Source: a virus
Virus record (IMG/VR): IMGVR_UViG_3300012920_007062
Coordinates: 1 to 21,880 of that record
Length of the DNA stretch: 21,880 nt
Direction: 5' to 3' (one strand)
Shown here: piece by piece, positions 3,018 through 10,831 of the stretch
How the letters are laid out: every line of letters starts with the position of its first letter
How positions within the stretch are numbered: the first letter of the stretch is position 1
Translations under genes and position numbers: made by a program
Notes under the pieces: model-generated
Databases searched by the model: none
Seen by the model: the letters and a program-made list of their open reading frames with translations, nothing else
Told to the model about the DNA's origin: nothing

Positions 3018-4292
3018 TTAACTTTGGTTTGACAAAACGTATTCTAATTCAGGAAACACAGTATGCCAAGATTCATTTCTTACTCTATCATAAAGTGACA
3101 ATGTAGACAATAAATCTAAATTAGGTTGCTGATCACTGTGTATAAATTTTATAAGTCCGTCTATCCATCCTAAAATATTTTCTATTTGGTCAAGATTATA
3201 ACTTTGTTTTAACCATTCTTTGTGTCCTTTCCATCTATCAACTACACGATTTTTATAATCATCAGGTAGATTTCTAATACAAAATTCCTGAGGAAAAAAC
3301 AACGGATGAAATCTAAAGTGATTAGGGTGAGCTAACAATTCCTGTTCAAGCCATTCTTGATGAAAGTCAGGCAAATGTAAAACATTTAAAATACTTACAG
3401 TAGGTGTGATTTCAAATTGAATATCCGGACAGTGTTCCAACATTAGATTTCTATTTTCTACAACTTGATTCCAATCTAAACCTTTTCGTATGTACTCACC
3501 TCGCTCCCAAGCACCATCTAAGCTAGCATGTACTTTGACTTCTTTGAATGGTTTCCATAGATCAAACAAATTTCTATTTTTGTATTTTAATTGGCTAAAG
3601 TTAGTTGTGTAATCAATTGAAATATCTTTTGCTTTGTTATTTGCGATCCAATAGTCCATTACATGCCAATGTTCTCTTGTTACAAAAGGTTCTCCTCCTG
3701 CCCAATACACACCTTCGGTTACATCTATTAAATTTAATATTTCATCAAGCAGTTTGTCTTTGTCAGTAATTTGTATAAATTTCTTTTCAGCTACGCTTTT
3801 AGGCACAGAACCATGTGCTTTTTCATAGTCATCATACCAACTACTACTCCAAGTTGGGTTACATGTTCTACACTTTAAGTTACATATATTGCTGAAACGA
3901 ATATCCATGTATACAAAATTTGGATCTGGATGCGATCCATCTTCTTGTGTTTGCAATACTTTGTTAAAATGGTTCTCTCCATATCTTAAATTTAAACTTT
4001 TTCTTAGCGAATAAGCATCTGCATTTTTTTCAAGTTCGTAACAGTTTGTACAATATTTACTGGCTTTGCCATTTAACATATCCAACCGTAGTTGTTTTAA
4101 ATTAGTAGAGTTCCAAATTTCTTTTAGTGTATTTTTGTGTGTATCGCCAAGTTGATCTTTTGTAGGTGTGTTAGTAACACAGCAAGGCATGACTGTACCA
4201 GTGGGCCAAACATGCAGATGTATCCATGGAGCCATACAAAATACATTTGATTTTTCTAATTGTTCATAGGTTGGTATTTTTTTGGTCGACAT
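3018..4292 (-). CDS. Radical SAM protein with N-terminal twitch-type cysteine domain
   Basis: The protein has 424 residues. The radical SAM cluster motif CxxxCxxC is C137, C141, C144 in SNICNLKCRTC, and the SAM-binding GGEP motif is at 199-202. Ahead of it lies a cysteine-rich domain with FCMAPW (18-23), PCC (36-38) and CTNC (81-84), as in the N-terminal twitch radical SAM family. The N-terminal domain would bind an auxiliary Fe-S cluster. These enzymes often modify peptides, but the substrate here is unknown and I see no obvious precursor peptide gene. It follows GMP reductase closely (6 nt gap), so it should belong to the clpS-guaC transcription unit. The ribosome binding site is weak. Confidence 0.88.
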   Translation of the reverse strand: MSTKKIPTYEQLEKSNVFCMAPWIHLHVWPTGTVMPCCVTNTPTKDQLGDTHKNTLKEIWNSTNLKQLRLDMLNGKASKYCTNCYELEKNADAYSLRKSLNLRYGENHFNKVLQTQEDGSHPDPNFVYMDIRFSNICNLKCRTCNPTWSSSWYDDYEKAHGSVPKSVAEKKFIQITDKDKLLDEILNLIDVTEGVYWAGGEPFVTREHWHVMDYWIANNKAKDISIDYTTNFSQLKYKNRNLFDLWKPFKEVKVHASLDGAWERGEYIRKGLDWNQVVENRNLMLEHCPDIQFEITPTVSILNVLHLPDFHQEWLEQELLAHPNHFRFHPLFFPQEFCIRNLPDDYKNRVVDRWKGHKEWLKQSYNLDQIENILGWIDGLIKFIHSDQQPNLDLLSTLSLYDRVRNESWHTVFPELEYVLSNQS

Positions 4293-4298
4293 AAATTG

Positions 4299-5417
4299 TT
4301 AGTTACCTGTAGTGGTAGCTTCATACGTTCGATTGAACTGATTGTGTACTCTGACAAAGGTTGTGCATTTGGCTAGTTGTTTTAATTTAATAGCACCAAC
4401 ATAAGTTAGTGTGCTTCTCACACCACCTAATACGTCTTGTAATGTAGTAATTACAGGTCCTCTGTATGGTACTAGAACTGTGCGTCCTTCACTGCTACGA
4501 TAATCTTTTAGACCGTCAAAGTGTTTATCATTAGCAGTTTTACTGCTCATACCATAGAACTGCACAAACCGTTTTTCTTCAATGACTCTACTGTCACCAT
4601 TTATTTCGTTTGTAAAATATCTTTTGGTAATTACTTCCCCGCCACCTTCATCATGCCCAGCAAGCATACCGCCAAGCATAACAAAATCTGCACCTCCTGC
4701 AAAGGCCTTTGCAACATCACCGGGACAAGTACAGCCACCATCAGCAATAATATGTCCGCCGAGACCATGCGCCGCGTCAGCACATTCAATAACCGCAGAC
4801 AATTGGGGATAGCCCACCCCAGTCTGTATGCGAGTCGTACAAACCGACCCTGGACCGATTCCGACTTTGACGATGTCTGCTCCATTTAATATTAACTCCT
4901 GTGTTTGATCTGCGGTAACAACATTACCTGCAATAATTACTATGTTAGGATACTGTTGTCTAAATTCTTTTACATATTCAATAAAACGTTGACTGTAACC
5001 ATTGGCTACATCAATACACACATATTTGAGTTGATCTCCAACTTGTTCGTACACATTTCTAAATTTTTGTAGGTCTTCGTCTTTGATACCAATACTCATT
5101 GCAACATTTTGTGTACGAAATGTTTGTGTGTCATCAAAATAGTCAACAAGTTCATTTACACTATATGTTTTGACAAGACATGTAAAAACATTAAATTCTG
5201 CTAGTCTATCAGCCATTTCGAATGTACCGACGCCATCCATGTTACTAGCCATAATAGGAATGCCTTCATAATGATATTCAGCATTTTCTTCATTAGCATA
5301 ATTAACAAATTCAAATTTACGTTCCATGCGTACTTCTTTACGTGAGCCCAAAGTACTACGTTTGGGTCGGATCAAGACATCGCTGTAATCCAACTTTACT
5401 TCATCTTCAATTCTCAT
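4299..5417 (-). CDS. guaC: GMP reductase
   Basis: The 372-residue TIM-barrel protein starts with the GMP reductase signature LDYSDVLIRPKRSTLGSR. The active-site loop GIGPGSVCTTR contains the catalytic cysteine C193, followed by TGVGYPQLSAV. The phosphate and flap regions are also present (DGGCTCPGD, FYGMSS, EGRTVLVPYRGP). It lacks the CBS domains of IMP dehydrogenase, and the TGVGYPQ sequence favours GMP reductase. The enzyme converts GMP and NADPH to IMP and ammonia, feeding purine back toward AMP. It is about 25 residues longer than the E. coli enzyme, partly through an insert near residues 36-52. The ATG directly abuts the TAA of clpS, so the two are co-translated. The phage may use it to favour adenine nucleotides, which is inference. 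Confidence 0.9.
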   Translation of the reverse strand: MRIEDEVKLDYSDVLIRPKRSTLGSRKEVRMERKFEFVNYANEENAEYHYEGIPIMASNMDGVGTFEMADRLAEFNVFTCLVKTYSVNELVDYFDDTQTFRTQNVAMSIGIKDEDLQKFRNVYEQVGDQLKYVCIDVANGYSQRFIEYVKEFRQQYPNIVIIAGNVVTADQTQELILNGADIVKVGIGPGSVCTTRIQTGVGYPQLSAVIECADAAHGLGGHIIADGGCTCPGDVAKAFAGGADFVMLGGMLAGHDEGGGEVITKRYFTNEINGDSRVIEEKRFVQFYGMSSKTANDKHFDGLKDYRSSEGRTVLVPYRGPVITTLQDVLGGVRSTLTYVGAIKLKQLAKCTTFVRVHNQFNRTYEATTTGN

Positions 5418-5720
5418 TTAAACCTCTTCTATGTCTAAGGCAAGGGGATATCCTGCACTACGGCTAATCATAGTGCTTTCAGCAACTTTTTGTTCTGCTA
5501 TTTCGTAGTAGTAAATTCCAGCAACACCTTTACCTTCATTGTGGACTTGTGTCGTGATAGTTTTTGCTTCTTCTTCATTATGACCAAAAATACTTTTTAG
5601 TAATTCGATTACAAACTCAATTGGAGTAGTGTTATCGTTATGAAGCACGACTCTAAATTTATTAGGTCGTTTTATAACAATATCTGTGTTTTTTTCTACT
5701 ATTGTTTGTGTTGCTTCCAT
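5418..5720 (-). CDS. clpS: ClpS adaptor protein
   Basis: The 100-residue protein matches the ClpS core: FRVVLHNDNTTPIEFVIELL, then VHNEGKGVAGIYYYEIAEQK, then a GYPLALDIEE C-terminus. N28, D29 and H60 correspond to the residues that grip N-degron substrates in ClpS. ClpS delivers such proteins to ClpAP. The ATG at 5718-5720 is chosen because the family N-terminus begins there. An in-frame ATG at 5762 lies inside the hairpin that follows hsp20. A GATAAATA promoter sits 5 nt upstream with no Shine-Dalgarno sequence. guaC follows without a gap. A phage ClpS could redirect host proteolysis or block N-degron turnover of phage proteins; which one is not visible. Confidence 0.92.
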   Translation of the reverse strand: MEATQTIVEKNTDIVIKRPNKFRVVLHNDNTTPIEFVIELLKSIFGHNEEEAKTITTQVHNEGKGVAGIYYYEIAEQKVAESTMISRSAGYPLALDIEEV

Positions 5721-5725
5721 ACTAA

Positions 5726-5733
5726 TATTTATC
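5726..5733 (-). promoter_or_regulatory. Late promoter with 5-nt gap to clpS ATG
   Basis: The minus strand reads GATAAATA, then TTAGT, then ATG. No ribosome binding site fits in the gap, which predicts a leaderless clpS transcript. Confidence 0.6.
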
Positions 5734-5740
5734 GTAAATC

Positions 5741-5762
5741 GTGGGAGGATTTCTCCCCCCAC
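5741..5762 (-). terminator. GNRA-capped hairpin after hsp20
   Basis: In minus-strand RNA, GUGGGGGGA (5762-5754) pairs with UCCUCCCAC (5749-5741) over 9 bp with one G-U pair, closed by a GAAA tetraloop. It starts 6 nt after the hsp20 stop and precedes the clpS promoter. There is no U tract, so it may protect the mRNA 3' end rather than terminate transcription by itself. Confidence 0.6.
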
Positions 5763-5768
5763 TTTATT

Positions 5769-6200
5769 TTATTTGATAGCGATTGTTTTAGGTTTCTTTT
5801 CCTCTGGAATGATTCGCTCTAGTTCAATATAAAGCATACCATTTTCCATTCTTGAACCTTGTACAACAATGTCATCACTCAGTGTAAAGTTTCTCTTGAA
5901 GCTTCTTTGTGCAATACCTTTGTGAATCCAATCCCATTTACCGGCTTCTACTTCACCTTCTGGATTGTGTTCAATGGTAAGTACACCATCTGCTACTGTG
6001 ATTTCTAAATCTTTTTTATCTACACCTGCTAGTGCGATTTCGATTTGAAACTTCTCACCATCTCTGATGATGTTGTATGGGGGATACCCTGTGCTTGAAG
6101 TATTATGTTCGATGTACTTGAACATATCGTCAAATACTCTATCGAATCCTACTGCATAGGGTGTAAGTTTATTAATGTCAAGGGTTGTTAATCTATTCAT
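5769..6200 (-). CDS. Small heat-shock protein, Hsp20/alpha-crystallin family
   Basis: This 143-residue protein has an IbpA-like layout. A short N-terminal arm (MNRLTTLDINKLTPYAVGFD) is followed by the alpha-crystallin domain at about 38-130, with YNIIRDGEKFQIEIALAGV, VLTIEHN, and the family-typical IAQRSFKRNFTLSDDI. The C-terminal tail contains TIAIK in place of a clear I-x-I anchor. Small heat-shock proteins hold unfolding proteins without ATP, and T4-like cyanophages commonly carry one. It has an AAAGGAGA ribosome binding site 6 nt before the ATG and a GATAAATA late promoter about 63 nt upstream, so unlike clpS it has a normal leader. Confidence 0.92.
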   Translation of the reverse strand: MNRLTTLDINKLTPYAVGFDRVFDDMFKYIEHNTSSTGYPPYNIIRDGEKFQIEIALAGVDKKDLEITVADGVLTIEHNPEGEVEAGKWDWIHKGIAQRSFKRNFTLSDDIVVQGSRMENGMLYIELERIIPEEKKPKTIAIK

Positions 6201-6262
6201 TTGCTATCTCCTTTATTAAGCAAGATTAATGTTAAGTAGACCCATCATTGGCATCTACACTG

Positions 6263-6394: not shown

Positions 6395-6612
6395 GTTAAA
6401 GTGAGTAGGGAGGACTTGGGTTTCACCTCCAACCAGGTCGACCGAGATACCATTCTCAAAATCCCCTGGAACTTACTTCCGCCCGGGAGGGCGATGTGAT
6501 TCTTGGTCGCTAAACTTCGAACCTGGCTACCACGCCTAAGCAATCAAGTTATGCCTCTTGGTCAGACACGTTTCCTTGCACTACTCTAGTAAGACCGTCG
6601 CCTTGCTATACT
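6276..6612 (-). ncRNA. Candidate structured noncoding RNA with its own promoter
   Basis: A region of about 330 nt between bS21 and hsp20 has locally higher GC and strong helices in minus-strand RNA. These are CGCCC/GGGCG closed by a 4-nt loop (6480-6493), CCAGG/CCTGG (6433-6437 with 6465-6469) enclosing GAGA/TCTC (6444-6457), GGAGG/CCTCC (6409-6413 with 6426-6430), GGCA/TGCC (6301-6316), and a final 7-bp GAGAAGC/GCTTCTC hairpin (6276-6297). Near the 5' end are ACTA/TAGT, CAAG/CTTG and GGC/GCC hairpins. A consensus-like sigma70 promoter (6617-6645) would start the transcript at about 6610. I looked for tmRNA, RNase P, 6S, SRP RNA, tRNA and group I intron landmarks and found none. The exact 3' end is unknown. 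Confidence 0.55.
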
Positions 6613-6616
6613 TATT

Positions 6617-6645
6617 AATATAATACTTCTTATACCAGAAGTCAA
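6617..6645 (-). promoter_or_regulatory. Sigma70-type promoter for the structured RNA
   Basis: TTGACT (6640-6645) and TATATT (6617-6622) on the minus strand are separated by exactly 17 nt. It lies just past the bS21 stop and points only at the noncoding region, so it is expected to drive the RNA with the host polymerase. Confidence 0.65.
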
Positions 6646-6652
6646 CCTTTTT

Positions 6653-6895
6653 TTACCAATTATCTTTATTTTTTTCTACTAGTTTTAACCAACGTTTACG
6701 TGCTTGTGCTTTTTCTCTTTTTCTCTTAATACTTGGTTTTTCATAGTATTCATTTTTTCGCATGTCTTTGATCATACCTTCTGCATTCATTAACTTCTTA
6801 AGTTTACGCAATGCACGATTCACGTCATTGTTACGAACTTCTACAAAAAGCCCAGGTTTACTAAAATCTTTTTCTATTGGTCTAAATTTGCTCAT
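6653..6895 (-). CDS. rpsU: Ribosomal protein bS21
   Basis: The 80-residue basic protein matches bS21: VEVRNNDVNRALRKLKKLM, then the EYYEKPSIKRKREKAQARKR tail. bS21 sits on the 30S platform near the 16S rRNA 3' end, where the anti-Shine-Dalgarno sequence pairs with mRNA. Its ATG overlaps the TGA of IF-3 as ATGA, so the two are probably made together. Phage bS21 homologues are known from pelagiphages and other marine phages and are thought to replace or compete with host bS21. It is the last gene of the unit that starts at the SNase late promoter, unless transcription continues into the RNA. Confidence 0.93.
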   Translation of the reverse strand: MSKFRPIEKDFSKPGLFVEVRNNDVNRALRKLKKLMNAEGMIKDMRKNEYYEKPSIKRKREKAQARKRWLKLVEKNKDNW

Positions 6896-7419
6896 TCTTT
6901 CCTCATTAGTATTCCAATTAAACGATTACCGTTTAAGTTTGGTTTAGATTCCCATTGGGAATTTTCTATGTTATCTACAATGCGTTGTAATACTTCAAAG
7001 CCTAGTTGTTTATTTGCGTTTTCTCTGCCTTTATATCTTATAACACATTTAACCTTGTTGCCTTTATTTAAAAATTTTTCAATATTTTTTAATTTAATAT
7101 CAAAATCGTTATCGCCAATTCCGAGCCTAAACTGCATTTCCTTAACAACAATAGTATTCTCTCTTTGTTTTTTTGCAGTTTCTTTTTCACGTTTCTTTTG
7201 TTCGTAAAAGTATTTGTTGGCATCTAGTAATTTTGCAACAGGTGGTTTACTTTTTTCACTTATTACTACTAGATCTGTTTTATGTTGTCTAGCTAAGTCT
7301 AATGCTCGATTTAGACTGATCACTCCAAATTGACCTAATTCACTAACAACTCTTAATTCTTTATGCCTAATATCTTCATTTATAGGTTGCTTAGGCGCAA
7401 CCCTTTGAAATCTACGCAT
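6892..7419 (-). CDS. infC: Translation initiation factor IF-3
   Basis: The protein is full length, 175 residues from the preferred ATG (7417-7419, MRRFQRVAPKQPINEDIR). GGAG lies 10 nt before this ATG but only 2 nt before the alternative ATG at 7428. The N-domain has PINEDIRHKELRVV, DLVVISEKSKPPVAKLLDANK and YEQKKREKE. The linker helix is lysine-rich, and the C-domain contains VKEMQFRLGIGDNDFDIKLKN and RYKGRENANKQLGFEVL, matching the bacterial GRExxxxQLGxEVL segment. IF-3 binds 30S, prevents 50S joining and checks the start codon and initiator tRNA. The start overlaps the preceding gene by 8 nt and the stop overlaps bS21. IF-3 is rare in phages; reports from huge phages are the closest precedent I know of. 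Confidence 0.92.
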   Translation of the reverse strand: MRRFQRVAPKQPINEDIRHKELRVVSELGQFGVISLNRALDLARQHKTDLVVISEKSKPPVAKLLDANKYFYEQKKREKETAKKQRENTIVVKEMQFRLGIGDNDFDIKLKNIEKFLNKGNKVKCVIRYKGRENANKQLGFEVLQRIVDNIENSQWESKPNLNGNRLIGILMRKE

Positions 7420-7846
7420 ATGGAACATTCTCCATTACAAGATCTCTATATTCTTCGATACAATCTACAATTGTAAATCTTTTTTCATTTATTGTCATGG
7501 TGTTTAAAATTTTTATTAATCCTTTCTTTTTATTATTTTGGTTTACAAATATTGTTGTTTTGTTACTTAGCAATACTAAACTAAGACTTAATTCGTTTAC
7601 ATCATCCATATCAACGTAAACAGTATCACTAAATCTAATCATGCTAATTATCCATGCACTATTAGATTCTGTTACTTTACCATTTGGGTGATATAATGTT
7701 ACACTAACACTTTTAAAAATATCTTCATACAATGATTCAATTTTTGCAACAAAACTTTTGTTACTACTAACTACAGTTATAATAGGACCTGATTCAGGTA
7801 ACATTATATCCGGAGGAGTTACTGTGTAAATTGCGTTTTCCCTCAT
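7412..7846 (-). CDS. Hypothetical protein (144 aa)
   Basis: The protein begins MRENAIYTVTPPDIMLPESGP and has alternating hydrophobic strands (ITVVSSN, VSVTLYHP, AWIISMIRF, TVYVDMDD, LSLSLVLLS, TTIFVNQ), suggesting a mostly beta or alpha/beta fold. It has no membrane segment and no motif I recognise. It ends inside the start region of IF-3 (8 nt overlap) and follows the coiled-coil membrane gene by a few bases, so it belongs to the same unit. The ribosome binding site is weak. Function is unknown. Confidence 0.7.
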   Translation of the reverse strand: MRENAIYTVTPPDIMLPESGPIITVVSSNKSFVAKIESLYEDIFKSVSVTLYHPNGKVTESNSAWIISMIRFSDTVYVDMDDVNELSLSLVLLSNKTTIFVNQNNKKKGLIKILNTMTINEKRFTIVDCIEEYRDLVMENVPYA

Positions 7847-7851
7847 TGGGT

Positions 7852-9735
7852 TTACTGCGGATCCTTCTTAATTTTAATACTCTTTATATTTTTTCCAACT
7901 GAACTAGCAAGTCTTCCATCTGGACTATACAGTTTCATATTTCTTCTTTGACTAAGTTCATCAGCTGTAAGTTCTTCATCAGCTCTAGTATCAGTATAAG
8001 GGTCATATGGAGGTTTGTCAACCGGTTTTTCAATATCTAGTTCTTTGGCTACTTCTTGTAATACTTCTGGATCTGCTTTTTCAAGCATAAATTTTAGTTG
8101 GTCGTCTCCACTGTCAAGAACTTGTTCTTGGTCTTCCTCCACTGTCTCCCGTTCATGAACACTGTCTTCATTATTGGTTTCTCCATCTCGTTCATCAAGT
8201 TCCACATGTTCTTCTTGTACAGATTGGTCATCTTTTTTCCCATCATCTGATTCATAAACTGTAGGTGTTGGTTCAACAATTGGTCGTAAAAGTTCTCCAT
8301 CTTTTCTTCTCCATTCAAATGTATATTGGCTAGCAATAAGAAGTAAAACTGCCAATGGATCAAATACAAATATAATTGTAATAATAACCCAACGTACTGC
8401 TTGCTCTAATATATCTCTATCAGCTTCTTCATATATAAACTCTGCAATGTATTTGATAGGTCCAACTTCTGCTTCTAGTTTTCTATACTCTGCTTCGATA
8501 GCATACTTTTCTTCAGTCAACTCGTCTATAAGTTTATTAGCATCAGCTATTCTTGCAGTTTGTGCGTCTATAATTGCATCAATATCTTCGCCACCATCTA
8601 CTGAAATTTTTTCTCTTAATTGTTGTATAAGTGTCTGACTTGCTTTGACTTGTTCATCTGCACTAGCTCTTATCCTTGCAATTTCATCTCTAGCAGTAGT
8701 TACTATTGGAGATTCAGTTGCACGAACTTCGTCTATTTTAGCAAGCATTTGGACTTCTCTGTCTTTTAATGTAGGTATTTGTACATTACGTATGTCATTT
8801 ACAATGGCACTAAGTCTGTTGCGTTCATCATCTACTGTAGTTTTTGCTTCTATTCTTAATTGTGAGATTTGTTCTTGTAGTTCACTTATACGTTCTTTTT
8901 GTAATCCAATCCAAGTATTTGCACTACGTCTTGTGTTTGGTCCTGCTTGTCCATCTGCATTTGAACCAATAGTAAGTTGTGCTTGTTTTATTTGTTCACG
9001 TTCTCCACTAGCAATTTGTCCTTCAACTTTTGCTATTGTATTTTTAATAGTTGCAATTTGTGCTTGTATTGGATCTATAGCACTTGTATCAACATCCAAT
9101 CCGGCAATAGTTGTTTCATATTCTTTTGCACTATTTTCTAATCTGACTAACTCTTCTGTAATTTTGGTTAATTGGTCTTCATATGGTTTAGTTCTATCAG
9201 CATCACTAAGTCTGGCATCTGCAATAATTTTTTGTTGTTCTTCAATTGCAGGCTTGATACGTTCATATGCATTGTCTATGCGTTTTTGTTCTTTTTCAAT
9301 CTGTGCATTAATATCGTCATTGCGATTTCCTGTGCTATTTTCAGCTTCATCTATTTTGATTTCAGCACGATCAATAATTGCTTGCTGTCTTGCTAGTTCT
9401 GTATTAATACGTTCAACTTGCTCTACACTTTCAATACTAGCACTAGTCTGTTCAATATGTGCTTTACTAAGGAAACCAAAGATGCCCATACTAGTGATAA
9501 ACATAAGCACTACAACTGCCAGTGCCAAATAATATCTTAACCACCAAGTTGCTCTACGCCAATATTTGTGTAACCAAACGGCTGTTACCAGTTTACCTAC
9601 TTCTAATGTACCGCCCATAATAATAATTGGTATAGCCGCGGCGGCGAATATTGCAACTAAGCCAGCTACACTATAATATATTGCTACGGCACTGATACAC
9701 AGTGCGATAAACATTGTTAAAAATCCAAATAGCAA
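7852..9735 (-). CDS. Large coiled-coil inner-membrane protein (627 aa)
   Basis: The protein starts with three hydrophobic stretches at about 2-28, 28-46 and 66-90. A long heptad-rich coiled coil follows (about 95-435, rich in E, Q, R and I/L), then a further membrane segment at about 446-468 (AVRWVIITIIFVFDPLAVLL) and an acidic C-terminal tail (about 485-590). The start is TTG, with GGAGAT about 7 nt upstream and the SNase stop just before it. Similar long coiled-coil membrane proteins occur in T4-like cyanophages without an assigned role. Possible roles include membrane remodelling, superinfection exclusion or lysis timing, none shown here. An antisense ORF of 295 codons at 8645-9532 is a compositional shadow. 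Confidence 0.8.
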   Translation of the reverse strand: MLFGFLTMFIALCISAVAIYYSVAGLVAIFAAAAIPIIIMGGTLEVGKLVTAVWLHKYWRRATWWLRYYLALAVVVLMFITSMGIFGFLSKAHIEQTSASIESVEQVERINTELARQQAIIDRAEIKIDEAENSTGNRNDDINAQIEKEQKRIDNAYERIKPAIEEQQKIIADARLSDADRTKPYEDQLTKITEELVRLENSAKEYETTIAGLDVDTSAIDPIQAQIATIKNTIAKVEGQIASGEREQIKQAQLTIGSNADGQAGPNTRRSANTWIGLQKERISELQEQISQLRIEAKTTVDDERNRLSAIVNDIRNVQIPTLKDREVQMLAKIDEVRATESPIVTTARDEIARIRASADEQVKASQTLIQQLREKISVDGGEDIDAIIDAQTARIADANKLIDELTEEKYAIEAEYRKLEAEVGPIKYIAEFIYEEADRDILEQAVRWVIITIIFVFDPLAVLLLIASQYTFEWRRKDGELLRPIVEPTPTVYESDDGKKDDQSVQEEHVELDERDGETNNEDSVHERETVEEDQEQVLDSGDDQLKFMLEKADPEVLQEVAKELDIEKPVDKPPYDPYTDTRADEELTADELSQRRNMKLYSPDGRLASSVGKNIKSIKIKKDPQ

Positions 9736-9737
9736 AT

Positions 9738-10085
9738 TTAATCTCCAAATCTAACAGCAAAACCTTCTTTAATCAGCTGTTCATTTATATTGACTTTGCT
9801 ACCGTCTGGATTGTTAACAAAAACGTTACCCATTATACGTCCTGCTTTGCCTCTTTTATTGAGTTGAGTTTCACAAATAAATTGTGTTCCAAGCAATTCG
9901 GTCAAGCGACTTTTGCTTGCAATTGCTTTACTTTTTTTATCATTATCTACACTACGAATATCTTCAACATTTATTCCGTATAGTTTAATTCGTTGTCTTA
10001 TAGTGACATTAAATCCTAAGTCGATGACTGCATCAACTGTATTACCGTCTATCACTCTAATTGTATTGCATTCATATGTATACAT
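9738..10085 (-). CDS. SNase-fold (thermonuclease-like) protein with altered active site
   Basis: The 115-residue protein has the staphylococcal nuclease layout: RVIDGNTVDAVIDLGF, IRQRIKLYGINVEDIR, a central helix (SRLTELLG), GRIMGNVFV, and NINEQLIKEGFAVRF at the end. The key positions differ from the family: DGNT replaces DGDT, and KLYGINVED replaces RLxGIDxPE. By simple alignment the first catalytic arginine becomes lysine, the calcium-binding aspartate becomes asparagine, and the catalytic glutamate becomes aspartate or shifts by one. It may be weakly active or inactive. The ribosome binding site is AAGGAA and the late promoter GATAAATA lies 24 nt upstream. It heads the unit that ends with IF-3 and bS21. 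Confidence 0.82.
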   Translation of the reverse strand: MYTYECNTIRVIDGNTVDAVIDLGFNVTIRQRIKLYGINVEDIRSVDNDKKSKAIASKSRLTELLGTQFICETQLNKRGKAGRIMGNVFVNNPDGSKVNINEQLIKEGFAVRFGD

Positions 10086-10108: not shown

Positions 10109-10831
10109 CTATTTATCGGATTTTGCACGATCCTGTTGCTGTTTTGCGAACCAGGACTTTGCTTGAGGCTTACGTGGAGGTGAATTAATAAATGCTCTAA
10201 TTGCTTTTTCAACTGCCTCAAAGTTTTCCTTGCGTTCTGGATCTTCCAAACCTCCGCTATTGTCTACAATATAGAAATGTTGATTACCAAACAATTGTTG
10301 AAATTTCATCATATTGTCTTGTACTGAATGCCACATATTGGTCACCATTTCATCTGGTAATTGGCGGGGTCTAAGTGTATTTCTATATTGTGCTACATCT
10401 AGGTTTGTGTTAACAAATACCATCATTGTATCATAACCTAGTTGCTCTAGTTTTTGTTTTTGATCTTTTGTTTTAGCAACATCTTTGGCTGTACCATCAA
10501 TAATCAAACCAAGTCTACCATCAATATAGTTTCCTTGTTTTAATTTAGTCAAACGTTTTGCTTTTTCTCTGGCTTCTTGTCCTTGTGGACTTGCAACAAC
10601 TTCCGGATCTTTAAGATCTAAAGGTTCTGGCTTAGCTAGACTAGCTAATTTTTCATAAACATCATCACTGTTTACTACTTTTAAACCAGTTGAATCTGCA
10701 CCCATTAAATTGGATACAACAAAGCCCTTTCCTGAGCCAGGACCACCAGCTAAGAAAACGGCTTTAAAAATATGAGGATCATTTGGACCCTCATTTAAAT
10801 TAGATGTTTTTATAATTTCATTTACTAGCAT
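10109..10831 (-). CDS. P-loop kinase, zeta-toxin-like
   Basis: The 240-residue protein has a clear Walker A motif GGPGSGKG (29-36) after a beta strand (AVFLA). It is followed by VVNSDDVYEKL (52-62), which resembles the NxDD element of zeta-toxin and PNK-like kinases. A second strand with GLIIDGTAKD (about 108-117) probably carries the catalytic or Walker B-like acidic residue, and LRPRQLPDEM is a plausible lid with arginines. The substrate is unknown; T4-like marine phages carry related predicted kinases. There is no antitoxin next to it, so a toxin role is not supported. A CATAAATA motif sits 5 nt before the ATG with no ribosome binding site. Confidence 0.8.
   Translation of the reverse strand: MLVNEIIKTSNLNEGPNDPHIFKAVFLAGGPGSGKGFVVSNLMGADSTGLKVVNSDDVYEKLASLAKPEPLDLKDPEVVASPQGQEAREKAKRLTKLKQGNYIDGRLGLIIDGTAKDVAKTKDQKQKLEQLGYDTMMVFVNTNLDVAQYRNTLRPRQLPDEMVTNMWHSVQDNMMKFQQLFGNQHFYIVDNSGGLEDPERKENFEAVEKAIRAFINSPPRKPQAKSWFAKQQQDRAKSDK
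10110..10117 (-). promoter_or_regulatory. T4-type late promoter for the SNase-to-bS21 unit
   Basis: The minus strand reads GATAAATAG 24 nt before the SNase ATG, with AAGGAA in the leader. The TAG stop of the kinase gene (10109-10111) is embedded in the motif. Confidence 0.6.

Follow-up and report, generated by a model that had tools for sequence, protein, structure and literature searches.

The window analysed here, meaning the whole 21,880-base stretch that makes up an IMG/VR virus record, carries intact infC and rpsU reading frames on one strand (Table 1). The infC frame runs from an ATG at 7419 to a stop at 6892; a second in-frame ATG lies upstream at 7428, and the start was placed at 7419 because the homologues and the Shine-Dalgarno (SD) spacing favor it. 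An earlier note on this DNA described a full-length IF-3 overlapping bS21 by ATGA, which is correct to the base, and both proteins score above the curated family cut-offs. IF3 reached 80.9 bits for Pfam IF3_N (cut-off 26.9), 87.2 bits for IF3_C (cut-off 34.8), and 150.5 for NCBIfam TIGR00168 infC (cut-off 60), and matched the phage family PHROG 9787 at 3.1e-48. bS21 reached 67.9 for PF01165 (cut-off 27) and 64.8 for TIGR00030 (cut-off 28.95). The predicted model of IF3 shows a two-domain fold with a pLDDT of 83 and, at a pTM of 0.49, an uncertain interdomain placement; it matches the 30S-bound IF3 structure 5lmn with TM scores of 0.79/0.83.

Table 1. Features of the infC-rpsU locus and its surroundings in the window.
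Feature	Positions	Strand	Basis or remark
infC, viral IF3, 175 aa (MRRFQR...)	6892..7419	-	ORF, Pfam, PHROG 9787, TIGR00168, predicted model, fold match
rpsU, ribosomal protein bS21, 80 aa, N-terminal extension of ~14 aa	6653..6895	-	ORF, Pfam, PHROG 21469, TIGR00030
infC stop/rpsU start overlap, ATGA, 4 nt	6892..6895	-	sequence and family alignment
ATGAGGAAAGA, rpsU Shine-Dalgarno (GAGG) inside the last infC codons, family-conserved	6896..6906	-	alignment, SD scan
Late-promoter-like GATAAATA	10110..10117	-	32 nt before SNase, 2.7 kb before infC
SNase-like nuclease, first gene of the putative five-gene unit with infC-rpsU	9738..10085	-	Pfam, PHROG
ORF7852, membrane protein with long coiled coil, block-conserved, also in other large phages	7852..9735	-	
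ORF7412, conserved protein, Rossmann-like alpha/beta predicted model, overlaps infC start by 8 nt	7412..7846	-	
Sigma-70-type promoter TTGACT-17-TATATT directly after rpsU, heads manA RNA-hsp20-clpS unit	6617..6645	-	
manA RNA (RF01745) in hsp20 leader, a neighbor outside the IF3-bS21 pair	6399..6607	-	
Hsp20, conserved downstream neighbor of the pair	5769..6200	-	
ClpS adaptor, conserved neighbor of viral IF3	5418..5762	-	

The window also codes for NrdA/NrdB, endolysin-like, PAAR-like, and minor-head-like proteins. The phage gene block reported by the earlier note is thus confirmed, with phage genes flanking the pair in a virus record. Cellular contamination was ruled out by these two points and by the divergence of cellular IF3s, the closest of which were 37-44% identical among the matches listed. 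In the pairs tested, dN/dS was 0.07-0.24 for IF3 and 0.04-0.23 for bS21 (overall about 0.04-0.24), which indicates that both proteins are under purifying selection. Judged by these ratios and by the trees described below, neither gene resembles the recent, unlinked host fragment with disabling mutations that the earlier note had considered, and neither looks to be decaying. These results support a long residence of the pair in phages. In the same gene block, at 3018-5417 (-), lie a GMP reductase scoring over the NCBIfam cut-off and a radical SAM protein with a twitch domain.

The earlier note had proposed searching related phages for infC beside rpsU. A first scan of virus contigs with a single IF3 protein as query returned 25 contigs, and bS21 immediately followed IF3 in every one of them. 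An IF3 profile scan returned 62 loci, some of them on near-duplicate contigs. In 51/51 related IMG/VR family contigs, with IF3 58-78% identical, bS21 lay directly 3' of IF3, overlapping it by 4 nt in 30 contigs (-4 members) and by 8 nt in 21 (-8 members). The order also held in two divergent contigs, L078 (IF3 37%) and L082 (46%), with spacings of 0 and +2 nt, respectively. One related contig, L058, with an IF3 62% identical to that of the window, is also exactly 21,880 bases long, which we regard as a coincidence. A single bS21 query in tblastn failed to pick up divergent partners, RpsU3 among them, and profiles were therefore used for the unpaired loci; bS21 was missing beside IF3 at 9 of the 62 profile loci, namely L079-L081, which form one lineage, and L083-L088. 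In the cultured Vibrio phage 2.275.O (MG592671), IF-3, RpsU3, and a ClpS-like gene are consecutive. It resembles our locus in this adjacency and differs in a 10-nt gap instead of an overlap, in its very divergent proteins, and in an IF3 that the tree places among those of jumbo phages.

Outside these phages the two genes were found apart. No close infC-rpsU pair was seen in 200 Pseudomonadota genomes, where the nearest pair on one contig was ~79 kb apart among the matches listed and read by eye. The pelagiphage HTVC008M (Mizuno et al., 2019, PMC6375957) is similar to our phage in that a marine phage bS21 is followed by Hsp20. However, it and Mosig, both cultured SAR11 phages that carry bS21, have no IF3 anywhere in the genome. 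IF3 was likewise found at 0/80 HTVC008M-type phage bS21 loci (flanks of up to 3 kb, with both flanks complete at 45 loci); Hsp20 was present at 62/80. The unlinked genes in Pseudomonadota and at the HTVC008M-type loci indicate that the IF3-bS21 linkage arose in phages, and chance adjacency was ruled out by the family-wide pairing against unlinked cellular genes and solo bS21 loci. The statement that an IF-3 partner is unusual therefore holds for the HTVC008M-type loci and the two SAR11 phages. It does not hold within this lineage, where pairing is the rule, and the pair is already annotated in Vibrio phage 2.275.O.

The 3' end of IF3 reads GAGG AAAGA ATGA in all -4 members examined, so that the rpsU SD lies 5 bases ahead of the bS21 start. 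Most -8 members retain an identical or very similar element, so that nearly all family members have it. The embedded SD includes the Arg codon AGG, which accounts for 12/241 Arg codons (5%) in the window genes counted. At its other end, the infC start overlaps the ORF7412 stop by 8 nt (ATGCGTAG). The conserved overlap and SD support genuine coupling of infC and rpsU. It should be considered whether IF3 and bS21 are separately useful and their adjacency is only historical. The whole block SNase-ORF7852-ORF7412-IF3-bS21-Hsp20-ClpS is conserved across relatives, and bS21-Hsp20 occurs without IF3. Since the neighbors are conserved too, an inherited gene order could account for part of the pairing. 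However, relatives with as little as 58% IF3 identity still have the overlap and the embedded SD, although the overlap shifts from -4 to -8. The pair is also found in Vibrio phage 2.275.O, which has an IF3 that clusters with those of other jumbo phages. We therefore regard a purely historical adjacency as very improbable.

With regard to transcription, the earlier note had assigned the pair to a late promoter and suggested that it may act late. The window contains nine ATAAATA sites, which is not above chance (mean 12.7); all nine are on the coding strand, and most closely precede a gene start. In 10/18 relatives a site is likewise present before SNase, at -25 to -37, and in 8/18 it is absent. 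The motif is thus credible, but it lies 2.7 kb upstream and heads SNase-ORF7852-ORF7412-IF3-bS21 rather than the pair itself, so late action is weakly indicated. Candidate marks of a T4-like marine myovirus are these GATAAATA-type sites and, in relative G001 (172 kb), a DNA polymerase (phrog_262); no head or tail proteins of the T4 type were identified. Behind the pair, the TTGAC-17-TATATT promoter between rpsU and manA was conserved in 11/11 loci compared, and the pair accordingly seems to close one unit, and manA RNA-hsp20-clpS to open the next. The manA RNA was rejected as first choice for a regulator of the pair, as this sigma-70-type promoter intervenes and manA was already known upstream of ibpA/hsp20 (PMC2864571). 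It occurs in part of the family only and was not detected in L009, L045, and L049 of the -8 group. A ROSE-like thermosensor match before hsp20, at 6195-6260 (-), scored 30 against a gathering score of 43 bits and was also weak in L012 and L018. ORF7412 is conserved out to L078 and L082, and it was absent from the named phages at the sensitivity used; its model gave no significant match in the PDB fold search. ORF7852 is partly common to pelagiphage Mosig and several jumbo phages.

The viral IF3s have several characteristic sequence features. The interdomain stretch Y75-V93 has 21 residues in all marine rows, in L078, L082, and L079, and in all 7 jumbo-phage rows. In the cellular sample of 116 rows, which over-represents Pseudomonadota and rows close to the query, it has 19 residues in 112 rows and 17 in the remaining 4, and 21 in none. 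All 77 marine IF3 rows, which include duplicates and represent 52 distinct contigs, carry Y70A and R168N (E. coli numbering), whereas cellular IF3s have Y/F at position 70 in 115/116 rows and R168 in 114/116. These residues are outside the curators' family definition, and their loss is a divergence inside IF3 rather than a ground for exclusion. The loss of R168 could weaken 30S binding. We take R99, K110, R112, R116, R129, R133, and R147 of E. coli to be the basic 30S-contacting residues of the C domain. The residues aligned to K110, R133, and Y75 are invariant, R129 and R147 are nearly so, and R99, R112, and R116 are mostly R or K.

Trees of both proteins, as the earlier note had recommended, gave no sign of a recent host origin. 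The marine family of IF3 grouped together, with the jumbo-phage IF3s separate, and a single clade of all viral IF3s was not rejected by the tree test (AU p = 0.72). The +2 linker common to the viral IF3s lends support to such a clade. The bS21 tree was weak, the protein being too short to resolve; in it, the HTVC008M bS21 fell with cellular ones, apart from the IF3-linked group.

Viral IF3 also has recurrent neighbors in jumbo phages. IF3-ClpS are adjacent in 121Q, GAP32, and XaC1, and ClpX-IF3 (Clp ATP-binding subunit) in Atu_ph07 and Phosso. Jumbo-phage AP-J-162, which carries IF-3, S21, and ClpX, is similar to our phage in having viral IF3 beside ClpS or ClpX (PMC11242549). The jumbo-phage IF3s compared in the alignment share the +2 linker with the marine family. 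However, their loci differ in having no bS21 in the inspected flanks; in Phosso it is ~7 kb away. The ClpS and ClpX neighbors would fit viral IF3 acting mainly as an anti-association factor, either once translation has terminated or when ribosomes have stalled, in concert with Clp adaptors and a phage tmRNA; PMC7824862 lists this among the possibilities. The alpha-type tmRNA and the ClpA-like protein encoded by relative G001 are also in line with a recycling or rescue function. Such a function leaves the strict pairing with bS21 in this lineage unexplained, and we find it quite improbable as the main one. The tmRNA of G001 is permuted, lies at L259:7484-7821, and has the tag ANDNRAPEMALAA; no tRNAs were detected in this genome. 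The tag resembles ANDNRAPAMALAA of a MAG of the order Rhodobacterales, which is only suggestive of a Rhodobacterales-like host. The ClpA-like ATPase (L261:1965-4202) scored under the NCBIfam cut-off; together with the phage ClpS it may possibly form a phage-run adaptor set for protein degradation.

We propose that the translationally coupled viral IF3-bS21 cassette retunes host 30S initiation, with a probability of roughly one in two. Late transcription of the SNase-ORF7852-ORF7412-infC-rpsU unit would lead to both proteins being made together. bS21 is exchangeable on ribosomes, and the viral copy might replace host bS21 or fill its site beside the anti-SD, while viral IF3 on the 30S platform would keep the subunits apart and check start sites. 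A 30S dressed in this way may then favor SD-led phage mRNAs. Strong SDs were found in 16/30 phage genes against a background of 10%, and leaderless or SD-independent phage initiation is accordingly unsupported. A viral bS21 from a pelagiphage enters 70S ribosomes, as shown in E. coli (PMC6375957), and in Flavobacterium, 30S complexes were IF3-dependent with intact bS21 and independent of IF3 when the bS21 C-terminus was missing (PMC9976891). This functional interaction of IF3 and bS21 in 30S complex formation makes it plausible, by analogy, that the pair remodels initiation rather than supplements a ribosomal protein, as the earlier note had suggested. Late expression of bS21 has been reported in other phages (PMC9723584).

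Several observations count against retuning. E. coli ribosomes with pelagiphage bS21 had ~5% activity (PMC6375957), which could mean inhibition, and the far-upstream position of the late promoter, with its motif lacking in eight relatives, speaks against retuning by a late unit. The main rival is simple supplementation, in which the phage copies only make good a shortage or loss of host IF3 and bS21 at a time of massive late synthesis and leave specificity unchanged. The family folds and most of the basic 30S-contacting residues kept in both proteins, the placement of IF3 and bS21 in a plausible late unit, and the ordinary SD sites on phage mRNAs agree with it. However, Y70A, R168N, and the +2 linker are fixed at near-invariant IF3 positions, and bS21 has an N-terminal extension, suggesting an altered rather than a copied function, and we consider supplementation fairly unlikely. 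A more specific form of retuning is that the altered IF3 (Y70A, R168N, linker +2) needs 30S subunits with viral bS21 for proper function, which would give a specialized phage initiation state and two ribosome populations with different start-site rules. This idea is tentative, and we think it rather unlikely.

Parts of this proposal have been published before. IF1, IF3, and S21 in huge phages, together with a hijacking model, were reported by Al-Shayeb et al. (2020, PMC7162821). Their translation-interception genes are similar to ours in including phage IF3 and S21 with N-terminal extensions and in the proposed redirection of host initiation. However, those genes are listed across genomes, whereas the marine lineage described here has them as a single overlapping and near-invariant pair. 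The phage bS21 of Bacteroidetes phages is comparable to ours and was tied to late replication (Chen et al., 2022, PMC9723584); the terms IF-3, infC, and initiation factor do not occur in the text of that study. Jumbo-phage IF3 and ClpS were noted separately in PMC7824862. The literature searched, with subscription papers outside its scope, yielded no description of IF3 and bS21 as a coupled pair, nor of the linker mark in viral IF3. Thus phage IF3, phage bS21, and the hijacking model are known (Al-Shayeb et al., 2020; Mizuno et al., 2019), while the coupled pair and the linker mark are apparently new.

The two-residue linker insertion is a sequence mark by which viral IF3 can be recognized in metagenomes, and the pair is a compact set for reconstitution, requiring two small proteins, host 30S, and defined mRNAs. 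Phage ribosomal proteins and initiation factors are usually listed singly. That two of them occur as a coupled, near-invariant pair, meeting at the 30S mRNA channel and platform, is strong genetic evidence for a tuning of initiation itself by phages. Taken together, the presence of both start-site-controlling proteins as one conserved unit in a marine phage suggests retuning of the host ribosome, beyond the mere supply of one spare part.
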